Made by a program: the position numbers and the translations under genes | Shown: positions 7,682 to 9,430 of the stretch, in pieces | Layout: each line of letters opens with the position of its first letter | Position numbering within the stretch: the first letter of the stretch is position 1 | Assembly: GCA_019313095.1 (NCBI GenBank) | Contig: JAFDBU010000277.1 | Location: forward strand, 1-16,230 | DNA from: Deltaproteobacteria bacterium | GTDB lineage: Bacteria; Desulfobacterota; Desulfobulbia; Desulfobulbales; BM004 | Direction of reading: 5' to 3' | Length of the DNA: 16,230 bases | The notes under the pieces: model-generated | Seen by the model: only the letters and a program-made list of their open reading frames with translations | Databases searched by the model: none | Told to the model about the DNA's origin: nothing

Positions 7682-8457
7682 TCTTACCATTTAATTTAGC
7701 TCCTTTCATTATACCTGTCCTGATAATCGTCCTATTTCTCTTCCTGTCCCTCAGGATTGTGCCGGAATACCAGCGTATGGTGGTTCTCTTTCTCGGACGG
7801 TTTCAGGCAGTCAAAAAACCGGGCCTGCGCATCGTGGTACCCGGCATTCAGCAGGCTTTCCGTGTCGACCTCCGGGTTATCACCATGGATGTACCCAGCC
7901 AGGACGTCATCTCACGGGATAATGTTACAGTGAGGGTTAATGCGGTTCTTTATTTTCGGGTGGTTGATCCTGAGAAGGCCATCATCCGGGTGGAGAACTA
8001 CCTGAATGCCACCAGCCAACTGGCCCAGACCACCCTGCGTTCCGTATTGGGACAGCATGAACTGGACGAGATGTTGGCCGAGCGCGAAAAGATGAACGCC
8101 ACCCTGCAGGAGATCATCGATAAGCAGTCAGATGCCTGGGGTATAAAGGTCACCAACGTTGAGATAAAGCATGTTGACCTGAATGAGAATATGGTGCGGG
8201 CCATTGCCAAACAGGCCGAGGCGGAACGTGAACGACGGGCCAAGATCATCAATGCCGAAGGTGAATTGCAGGCCTCGGAAAAACTGCTGGCAGCAGCCAA
8301 TGTCATTTCCCAGAACCCGCAGGCATTACAGCTCCGTTATCTGCAGACCCTGATTGATCTGTCAACCGAGAACCACACCACAGTGGCTTTTCCTCTACCG
8401 CTGGATATTCTGGAGGCTTTCGGGATAAAGATAGGTAAACAGGGCCAGGGGGGTTAA
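7678..8457 (+). CDS. Slipin (SPFH/stomatin family membrane protein)
   Basis: 259 residues from ATG 7678, with AGGAGG 7 nt upstream; an in-frame start further up inside nfeD is not credible. One hydrophobic helix (residues 9-26) anchors the protein, followed by the SPFH domain: [53 protein letters not shown]. The slipin hallmark [12 protein letters not shown] leads into a long charged helix with [20 protein letters not shown], a typical stomatin sequence. It forms oligomeric membrane microdomains and is the known partner and substrate of the long NfeD protease. The C-terminus is hydrophobic ([15 protein letters not shown]), the kind of segment cut by the partner protease in archaeal pairs. Confidence 0.93.
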
Positions 8458-8464
8458 TATTAAA

Positions 8465-8485
8465 AATGGAGAATGGAGAATGGTG
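8465..8485 (+). repeat. Heptad-periodic repeat block after the slipin gene
   Basis: Three exact heptads, AATGGAG, AATGGAG, AATGGTG, beginning 8 bp after the slipin stop. It lies in the 111-bp space before the selenoprotein gene. Confidence 0.7.
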
Positions 8486-8568
8486 CTCATTTACGATAAT
8501 AAATGATTATTTTTAGATGGATGCTTATGTTGACATTAACCCTGTAAAAATAATTGGACCCGGAAGTA

Positions 8569-8805
8569 ATGAAAAAACGTGTACGGATTGACATTGACTA
8601 CCGCAGGGATTGCTGATGGGGCTATAAAGACGTGCGGGCACGTCTCAGCAGCATGGCAGTCGGCCAGGAATTCTGTTTCCTCTGCATAGAAAAAATGGCA
8701 GAAAAGATGGACAGGGTCATGGCCCTGGCCGGAGGTGAAATATTCAACAGGGAAGACAGGTCCTACGGTGTTGTCATCTGTGTGCGGAAAAAGGCGCAAT
8801 TGTAA
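8569..8805 (+). CDS. Predicted selenoprotein, TusA-like (Cys-Sec motif), in-frame UGA at 8614
   Basis: A 79-codon frame begins at ATG 8569 (GGAAG 2-6 nt upstream) and runs to TAA 8803-8805, interrupted only by TGA at codon 16. Read with Sec it gives a 78-residue protein with RVRIDIDYRRDCU at the N-terminus, the DVRARLSSMAVGQEF segment, a hydrophobic strand, a Met-rich helix, an AGGEIFN turn and a final strand YGVVICVRKK. This order and length fit the TusA/SirA sulfurtransferase fold: in TusA the conserved Cys is followed by Pro (CPxP), and here by Sec. A perfect hairpin follows the TGA (see SECIS entry). TusA-like proteins carry a persulfide on that Cys and hand sulfur to partners; a Cys-Sec pair suggests redox or selenium/sulfur relay chemistry. 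If TGA were a true stop, only 15 residues, or a 50-residue piece from ATG 8653, would remain. Family assignment is by pattern only. Confidence 0.78.
8614..8645 (+). promoter_or_regulatory. UGA Sec codon and predicted bacterial SECIS hairpin
   Basis: TGA is at 8614-8616. After 11 nt, AGACGTG (8628-8634) pairs perfectly with CACGTCT (8639-8645) around a CGGG loop (8635-8638). The loop starts 18 nt after the UGA and has G in its second position, in line with the known bacterial SECIS pattern (loop about 16-37 nt downstream, G at the start of the loop) that binds SelB. The hairpin lies within the coding sequence, as bacterial SECIS elements do. Confidence 0.75.
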
Positions 8806-8875
8806 ATATAGAGCCGGTTTTTTCTTCAATACTTCATTTCGTTAATATAAGGATTCAAGACTTGTCTCCTCTTCT

Positions 8876-9430
8876 ATGAAGCGCATTCTAAAAAAAACCT
8901 TAAAAATCTTTACAGTTCTTAGCCTGCAGGGTTTGATCCTGGCAGGCTGTTCCGGGAATAAAGACTGGCGCACCGCCAGTCGGGAATCTGCCGGGATCGC
9001 ACCGGACCCTGCCAGCACACATGAGGCCGTTCTGCAGGTATATGGAGCCAAAGCCTGGGGCTGGCGGGGCTGGTTTTCCATCCACACCTGGATTGCGGCA
9101 AAGCACACCGGCGAAACCTCTTATACAGTCTATGACGTGGTTGGCTGGCGTCTCCATCGCAACCACCCTGTTTTAAGGATCGTCGAGGATATTCCGGACC
9201 GTTACTGGTATGGCGAGAAGCCCAGAATCATCAAAGAGTTTCGAGGAGAAAGAGTCGATACCCTGATTGATTCCGTAAACAGGGCTGCCAATGCTTATCC
9301 CTGGAAAACCACCTACAAGGCCTTCCCGGGCCCCAACAGCAATACCTTCACCGGTTGGATAGCCAGACAGGTCCCTGAACTGGAGCTGAATCTGCCCTTT
9401 TCAGCCATCGGCAGCGGCTACACTGACTAG
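8876..9430 (+). CDS. DUF3750 family lipoprotein
   Basis: 184 residues. A basic N-terminus (MKRILKKTLK), a hydrophobic stretch and the lipobox LAGC (C25) mark a lipoprotein signal peptide. The mature part contains VLQVYGAKAWGWRGWFSIHTWIAAK, whose Trp-rich core is the DUF3750 signature, then the DVVGWRLHRN and ANAYPW segments and a final GPNSNTFTGWIARQVPEL with the conserved N-S-N-T-F. A Cys-free mature chain with conserved H, N and T suggests an enzyme-like pocket, but the function of DUF3750 is unknown to me. There is no strong Shine-Dalgarno sequence before ATG 8876 (AGGA lies about 23 nt upstream). It is 70 bp after the predicted selenoprotein on the same strand. Confidence 0.85.
   Translation: MKRILKKTLKIFTVLSLQGLILAGCSGNKDWRTASRESAGIAPDPASTHEAVLQVYGAKAWGWRGWFSIHTWIAAKHTGETSYTVYDVVGWRLHRNHPVLRIVEDIPDRYWYGEKPRIIKEFRGERVDTLIDSVNRAANAYPWKTTYKAFPGPNSNTFTGWIARQVPELELNLPFSAIGSGYTD

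Follow-up and report, generated by a model that had tools for sequence, protein, structure and literature searches.

A probable overlooked selenoprotein family with a Cys-Sec motif and a predicted TusA-type fold in Desulfobacterota

The window analyzed here, a 16,230-nucleotide contig of a Desulfobulbales bacterium (JAFDBU010000277.1), contains a plus-strand frame at 8569-8805 that opens with ATG at 8569, closes with TAA at 8803-8805, and is interrupted by a single in-frame TGA at codon 16, raising the question of whether this triplet ends translation, encodes Trp, or inserts selenocysteine (Sec). Counting the stop, the frame spans 79 codons and would yield a 78-residue protein, MKKRVRIDIDYRRDC-U-WGYKDVRARLSSMAVGQEFCFLCIEKMAEKMDRVMALAGGEIFNREDRSYGVVICVRKKAQL, with Sec as residue 16. 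The initial annotation, which proposed a TusA-like selenoprotein, had described the frame, including the TGA directly after a Cys codon, exactly as re-reading finds it. Homologues and in-frame purifying selection indicate that 8569-8805 is almost certainly an overlooked gene for a 78-residue selenoprotein, with the UGA at 8614-8616 decoded as Sec. The best explanation overall, to which we assign a rough probability of 0.8, is a selenoprotein of TusA-type fold that acts as a Cys-Sec carrier.

Conservation of the UGA codon and the downstream hairpin

A first search retrieved three close loci with 76-82% identity (metagenome-assembled genomes, MAGs, of Desulfobia and Desulfobulbaceae), all with TGA at the site. 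Genome searches with profiles in which Cys stands in for Sec matched 82 of 257 genomes of the order (48 of the 148 better genomes) and 34 of 395 genomes drawn evenly across the Desulfobacterota phylum, 30 of them outside the order. Order matches of at least 25 bits were kept and identical 120-nt cores merged, leaving 102 entries that represent 101 genes, one of them (L036) in two pieces. DNA was left unread at places on G029:C69, G226:C108, G224:C227 (1 TAA), and G028:C155 in the order search and on G454, G554, G352, and G343 in the phylum search. Among 124 distinct readable genes, codon 16 is UGA in 120 and Leu in four, with neither Cys nor TGG in any; outside this set stand L132, cut by a contig edge, L058, which has TAA, and the second piece of L036. 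The pattern behind this count allowed only Sec or Leu, and a recount without residue limit gave the same result, with 95 UGA, four Leu, and three motif-less entries in the order and 30 entries in the phylum (repeats included), all Cys-Sec. The homologue comparison with UGA masked, proposed in the initial annotation, found Sec at codon 16 and never Cys; a lack of homologues with either residue, which it had named as refuting, did not occur. A search of viral contigs returned 21 pattern matches, none a relative.

The residue preceding the UGA, encoded in the window by TGC (8611-8613), is Cys in 118 of the 120 UGA genes, Thr in one, and Ala in one. It belongs to a conserved DYRxDCUx motif (D10 to W17; 8596-8619, plus strand) forming the putative active site, which appears for example as DYRGDCURG in member L090 of genome G069. 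The residue after Sec is mostly Lys, Trp, or Arg. Across 99 genes of the order, D10, R12, R25, and L26 are near-invariant, and a third Cys, Cys39, is present in 73 members and replaced by Val in 17. These genes establish a family that occurs in many Desulfobacterota, its predicted Sec following Cys in a DYRxDCU motif.

Sequence comparisons indicate that purifying selection acts both 5' and 3' of the UGA. The ratio of nonsynonymous to synonymous change (pN/pS) is 0.09 5' of the UGA and 0.34 3' of the hairpin (105 pairwise comparisons of 31 genes in the window's subfamily), and, 3' of the UGA against seven relatives, 0.14-0.46 in the coding frame versus 0.97-2.59 in the other two frames. Selection persists downstream of the TGA, and the decay named in the initial annotation did not occur.

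The sequence at 8628-8645 (plus strand) forms a candidate bacterial selenocysteine insertion sequence (SECIS) hairpin, in which a 7-bp stem (AGACGTG/CACGTCT; 8628-8634 with 8639-8645) closes a CGGG tetraloop (8635-8638) bearing G at loop position 2. The perfect 7-bp hairpin with a CGGG loop beginning 18 nt past the TGA, as claimed earlier, is present there. Bacterial SECIS limits given in the available part of PMC13188914 (loop 3-9 nt, stem 4-16 bp, G in the first two loop positions, spacing 16-37 nt, minimum free energy ≤ -7.5 kcal/mol) all accommodate the window hairpin, with its 4-nt loop, 7 bp, G at position 2, 18-nt UGA-to-loop spacing, and -9.1 kcal/mol. The isolated hairpin has a z score of -3.36, 3 of 200 shuffles being equally stable; longer folds are unremarkable (39 nt, z -1.19, 26/200 shuffles; 66 nt, z -1.88, 9/200). 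Because these longer folds are weak and single-sequence folding is only moderate evidence, comparative tests were used.

Coding constraint was modeled with 500 sets of synonymous recodings that followed local codon usage, the six core pairs joining codons 21-22 with codons 24-26. With G-U allowed, 5.90 of 6 core pairs form, versus 3.74 (standard deviation 0.09) in recodings, and the complete six-pair stem occurs in 113 of 120 UGA genes, versus 4.1 genes on average and never more than 11 in recodings. In the four genes with Leu, pairing is at chance level (3.0 core pairs versus 2.8). The loop-closing pair, between the third base of codon 22 (silent where Val) and the second base of codon 24, is A-T in 60, G-C in 49, and C-G in 3 of the 120 genes, and it has the top mutual information (1.01 bits) of all position pairs separated by 4 nt or more within the 39 nt that follow the UGA (82 representatives below 80% identity). 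It is complementary in 77 of these representatives, versus at most 63 in 1000 shuffles; covariation counts include shared ancestry, with no correction for kinship. Ten genes have G rather than A as the second base of codon 21, and in 9 of them the silent third base of codon 25 is likewise changed, reading C rather than T; the remaining four core pairs are nearly invariant, and loop position 2 is G in all 120 UGA genes. The covariance check called for earlier accordingly finds a stem that covaries and is kept beyond coding constraint. The comparative evidence raises the hairpin far above chance and establishes 8628-8645 as a predicted SECIS element assisting the decoding of UGA as Sec. A scan of 8400-9000 against Rfam gave two matches, both far under gathering scores.

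The genome of the window encodes tRNA-Sec (selC; 73 bits, anticodon TCA), a selB fragment, and two selD genes above cut-off, each with UGA at TCGUAAK. These two selD genes (L020 and L021, on G000:C121 and G000:C2) are very similar, with a catalytic-site UGA, within one incomplete genome. Of the sel genes that the initial annotation asked for, selC and selD are present, selB is represented by a fragment below its cut-off, and selA was seen only in genus-mates, where it is present in 7 of the 8 other genomes; a genome devoid of sel genes, the refuting outcome, is not what was found.

Database entries bear on the two other readings of the codon. Of 61 database proteins matching the window protein, 57 are fragments whose start lies 3' of the UGA; the other 4 span the full length and carry Trp at the codon. 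A family profile retrieved 115 proteins (overlapping the 61), comprising 73 fragments lacking the motif, 8 Cys-Trp proteins, and 34 full-length proteins of a Sec-less type. Were the UGA a true stop, leaving a dead gene or a short downstream open reading frame (ORF) starting at GTG or ATG, the 57 fragments and the TAA of L058 would be as expected. However, the codons 5' of the UGA are the most constrained of all, 120 genes have UGA as the stop-like codon and only one other gene read has TAA, the hairpin is kept beyond coding needs, and a protein starting after the UGA would lack strand 1 and the active-site turn of the predicted fold, which are encoded up to and at that codon, so that a true stop is very improbable. 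Reading as Trp, by a code-4-like organism or special recoding, could appeal to the 8 Trp proteins, which probably reflect gene calling under such a code: near-identical DNA (L004) has TGA, the entries' own DNA being unseen. Yet UGA terminates 7 of 16 checked ORFs in the window, tRNA-Sec with a TCA anticodon and Sec-type selD are encoded in the genome, the SECIS hairpin is conserved, and TGG is absent from the site in 124 genes, which leaves Trp decoding with hardly any probability. The initial annotation held that conventional calling skips the gene or calls the antisense frame; an antisense ORF (8536-8829, 97 aa) does overlap the frame and most relatives are post-UGA fragments, but 4 of 61 were called full-length with Trp. 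A set of 'hypothetical protein' entries is explained as 5'-truncated members.

Several observations weigh against decoding as Sec with the aid of the hairpin. L058 (G030:C24:17464-17682, minus strand) has TAA at the Sec codon although its frame and hairpin otherwise look intact, an error or a recent inactivation, and L036 (G109:C14:4688-4903) retains UGA and hairpin, with a TAA right after the hairpin. The mutual-information pairs ranked next (0.76 and 0.71) are loop positions flanking the top pair rather than stem pairs, so part of the covariation tracks subfamilies, and the stem is incomplete in 7 of 120 UGA genes. The selB fragment lies at a contig edge and scores 177 bits against a cut-off of 242; a search for selA in the MAG of the window, which is 64% complete, found none. 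tRNA-Sec is above cut-off in 215 of 257 genomes of the order and found at E < 1e-9 in 66 of 82 family-bearing genomes (hand count), a near-universality that keeps co-occurrence with the family from discriminating. On balance, UGA in 120 of 124 genes, a stem kept beyond coding constraint, selection on both sides, and Sec machinery support the selenoprotein proposed from the outset. Separately, two UGA members, L110 and L111 (G103 and G217), form just 3 of the 6 usual stem pairs; their SECIS may be shifted or of another form.

Absence of Cys forms and loss of Sec

The 34 Sec-less full-length database proteins carry Leu, Arg, Pro, or Gln at the site, with no Cys before it; by eye, P0189 reads Thr-Leu and P0207 Thr-Arg. 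Cys occupies the site in none of the 42 database proteins (of the 115) that reach it and in none of the 124 genes, even though the profiles carried Cys there; distant relatives may be missed. Since the database search reaches only relatives sharing short exact words, the absence of a Cys homologue means that none was detected, and TusA proteins, if homologous, would be Cys proteins at very great distance.

The family tree, built from 123 rows after masking of residues 15 and 16, comprises only 69 columns, which leaves its deep forks unsure. The four Leu genes form one well-supported branch together with a UGA gene, L029, whose stem is degraded. This branch is nested in seven genes of the window's genus, all directly downstream of tatC (named by eye), of which two retain Cys-Sec, one has Thr-Sec, and four have neither, so that Cys and Sec were abandoned together in that single lineage. 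In L029 itself (1501-1722; G006), UGA stands at the Sec codon within the Sec-less branch, preceded by Thr and followed by the degraded hairpin; it would reflect a recent nonsense mutation, a reversion, or a fault of the assembly. The window's own genome carries a second, Sec-less paralogue with Thr-Leu for Cys-Sec, directly downstream of tatC (G000:C219:5019-5234; L122, L015). Within the genus, the copy of the window's subfamily occurs only in this genome (G000), and the genus-mates with a match (6 of 8) carry the tatC-linked copy. Misbinning of the contig is unlikely, as the ABC-F gene of the window has an 81% identical counterpart in a genus-mate, identity reaching no more than 68% in the other 56 genomes searched. 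Because the contig fits its genus, the patchiness of the subfamily likely stems from repeated loss or from horizontal transfer, the genomes being incomplete.

A tentative and rather doubtful generalization is that of an old, phylum-wide family existing only with selenium, in which loss of Sec takes the neighboring Cys along and Cys never substitutes for Sec. The Cys-Sec pair would then perform chemistry impossible for sulfur alone, for instance by serving, on a TusA scaffold, as a perselenide carrier specific for selenium or as a redox shuttle of very low potential.

Predicted fold and relation to TusA

An AlphaFold model computed from 59 aligned sequences, with Cys for Sec, has a mean predicted local distance difference test (pLDDT) score of 91.9 and a predicted TM-score (pTM) of 0.80. 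The six best PDB entries by Z score are YeeE-YeeD (10.7, with a root-mean-square deviation of 1.9 over 71, and 10.3), IscS-TusA (9.6 and 9.2), YhhP (9.2; 1dcj, the TusA nuclear magnetic resonance structure), and a SirA-like protein (8.4); the first fold not of TusA type follows at 7.8. The modeled β-α-β-α-β-β fold is very probably of the TusA/SirA/YeeD type. Its Cys15-Sec16 pair is predicted at the turn opening helix 1, where TusA bears its persulfide Cys, and Cys39 ends strand 2.

TusA membership is not established at the sequence level. Profile comparison with the genome's own TusA type gives E 0.054, at noise level; PF01206 matches 4 of 59 members (E up to 1) with a best value of 0.033, short of the gathering cut-off, and does not match the window protein; and a sequence-profile search of PDB gave five matches (best E 0.26), no TusA among them. 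By structure, Foldseek alone produced no match at E 0.001 or better, its best being YeeE-YeeD at 1.6e-3. The TusA-like assignment made at the outset consequently stands for the nearest fold of the model and not for membership by sequence. Two other hits, to Pfam DUF7219 (E 0.0043) and an NCBIfam CpcD model (E 0.021), each in 1 of 59 members, were taken as chance.

The genome's own TusA was modeled at pLDDT 87, with Cys18-Pro19 before helix 1 (residues 20-31) and strand 2 at 37-42; the corresponding elements of the new protein lie at 15-28 and 34-39. Anchoring on helix 1 and strand 2 gives an offset of 3, which aligns Cys15 and Sec16 with the Cys and Pro of TusA, respectively, whereas anchoring on the D-x-R motif gives an offset of 2 and places Sec16 on the TusA Cys. 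The active-site turn appears equivalent to that of TusA in these models, with a register differing by one residue between anchors. The earlier statement that Sec replaces the residue after the active Cys holds under the first anchor but not under the second.

Proposed function and comparison with known systems

The protein, small and soluble, may use its Cys-Sec couple as a redox carrier or as a carrier of chalcogen (sulfur/selenium). Sec16 would act as the nucleophile accepting sulfane sulfur, selenium, or an oxidizing equivalent from a donor, the adjacent Cys15 would resolve it as a Cys-Sec selenenylsulfide, and a cellular thiol system would re-reduce the pair. A Cys-Sec pair forming a selenenylsulfide is found in mammalian thioredoxin reductase. 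In the accessible text of PMC2854127, the Cys of Escherichia coli TusA accepts persulfide from IscS. We place the carrier mechanism, with Sec16 as nucleophile and Cys15 as resolving residue, somewhat short of even odds. Counting against it are its basis, confined to fold and motif, and the neighbors of family genes, which vary by clade: by Pfam, a CxxCxxCC-domain protein, CreA, and a NapH-like Fe-S protein; elsewhere, TatC and polyphosphate kinase (by eye), and selB. Such variation is as expected of a stand-alone gene. In the window, where the neighbor search for the gene covered the 3.2-kb locus, the neighbors encode an NfeD protein and an SPFH/Band 7 protein, with a DUF3750 protein downstream, none of which suggests a pathway. 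A promoter scan of 8400-8900 found no site on the plus strand.

Binding or detoxification of a metal or metalloid by the Cys-Sec pair, in place of carrying sulfur, selenium, or electrons, would suit several CU-motif families that are metal-related by name (HgcA, MerB-like SaoL, MbdU, and a CopZ-like 2Fe-2S protein; Table 1 of PMC13188914). Cys39, at the end of strand 2, could complete a soft-metal site in the 73 of 99 members that have it, but is replaced by Val in 17; no metal-handling gene was recognized among the recurrent neighbors looked at, and the fold is nearest to sulfur carriers, making a metal role unlikely.

Quite unlikely, too, is a role in Sec synthesis itself, as a carrier or sensor dedicated to selenium that would, for example, pass perselenide to SelD. 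One genus has three genomes in which the family gene lies 7-16 nt downstream of a selB-like gene (the one scanned is selB, at 381.9 bits), no Cys version was found, and TusA's receipt of persulfide from IscS offers a precedent (PMC2854127, in part), as does, within the available parts of PMC5322559 and PMC2432076, the link of a SirA-like domain to selD via YedF. A NifS-like class V aminotransferase gene lies downstream of L025. However, the selB linkage is limited to one genus, and a family present in 82 of 257 order genomes (48 of 148 better ones), against near-universal tRNA-Sec, cannot be generally required for Sec synthesis. The surroundings of L025/L006 (G226), the Desulfobia pelagia member, comprise, downstream, the aminotransferase, a NapH-like Fe-S protein, and a rhodanese-like protein (by eye). 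In the window itself, two overlapping ORFs at 497-1079, by eye with a TPR-type start and a methyltransferase-like end, possibly represent one broken or frameshifted gene.

The family, with 120 UGA genes among those read from Desulfobacterota and no Cys form found, enlarges the selenoproteome of sulfate reducers and relatives and brings a predicted TusA-type fold into it. Its 78-residue protein could serve to probe which tasks selenium performs beyond the reach of sulfur. Selenoprotein finders depend on Sec/Cys pairs. In the available part of PMC12013277, the authors of deep-Sep state that selenoproteins lacking Cys homologues may escape their method, and that such homologues now seem to exist for every selenoprotein known. 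The 2026 Table 1 of PMC13188914 (119 families/subfamilies) has no TusA/SirA entry by name or domain; neither its main text nor PMC12013277 mentions SirA, TusA, or YedF, and SirA and TusA are likewise absent from PMC9312934. We found no report of such a family, although coverage was thin for subscription papers and preprints; the 34 selenoproteins predicted for a marine deltaproteobacterium, as given in the accessible part of PMC8318568, may contain a member.

Among known systems, YedF, a fusion of SirA-like and DsrE-like domains, likewise ties a SirA/TusA-type domain to selenium use; it differs in the CPXP of its SirA domain and in its second, DsrE-like domain, and is not described as a selenoprotein in the available text of PMC5322559. 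More broadly, the SirA-like proteins in the accessible portions of PMC5322559, PMC2432076, and PMC4607533 are of YedF type and linked to selD or selenium use; Sec in the SirA domain is not what these texts treat. The CU-motif selenoproteins of Table 1 of PMC13188914 (HgcA, SaoL, SaoC, KCU-star (DUF466), MbdU, and the Csac_0668-type 2Fe-2S protein) share the vicinal Cys-Sec, and NCBIfam scans of 59 members of the new family gave no convincing match (best E 0.021). GrdA, selenoprotein A of glycine reductase, was long believed to lack Cys homologues, according to the available parts of PMC1794560 and PMC12013277, the latter of which reports such homologues; for the new family none was found. The DsrE-like, OsmC-like, and rhodanese-like selenoproteins of the same Table 1 also place Sec in sulfur- or thiol-chemistry domains, but in other domains and in the motifs UxxC, UxxT, and UxxS/UxxG/CxU. 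Closest are the TusA/SirA/YeeD (TsuB) proteins (PF01206; PDB 3lvj, 1dcj, 8k1r, 3hz7), which share the size and predicted fold of the new family and likewise have their reactive residue(s) where helix 1 begins, whereas the new family has Cys-Sec for their Cys-Pro and one residue fewer between the D-x-R motif and helix 1.
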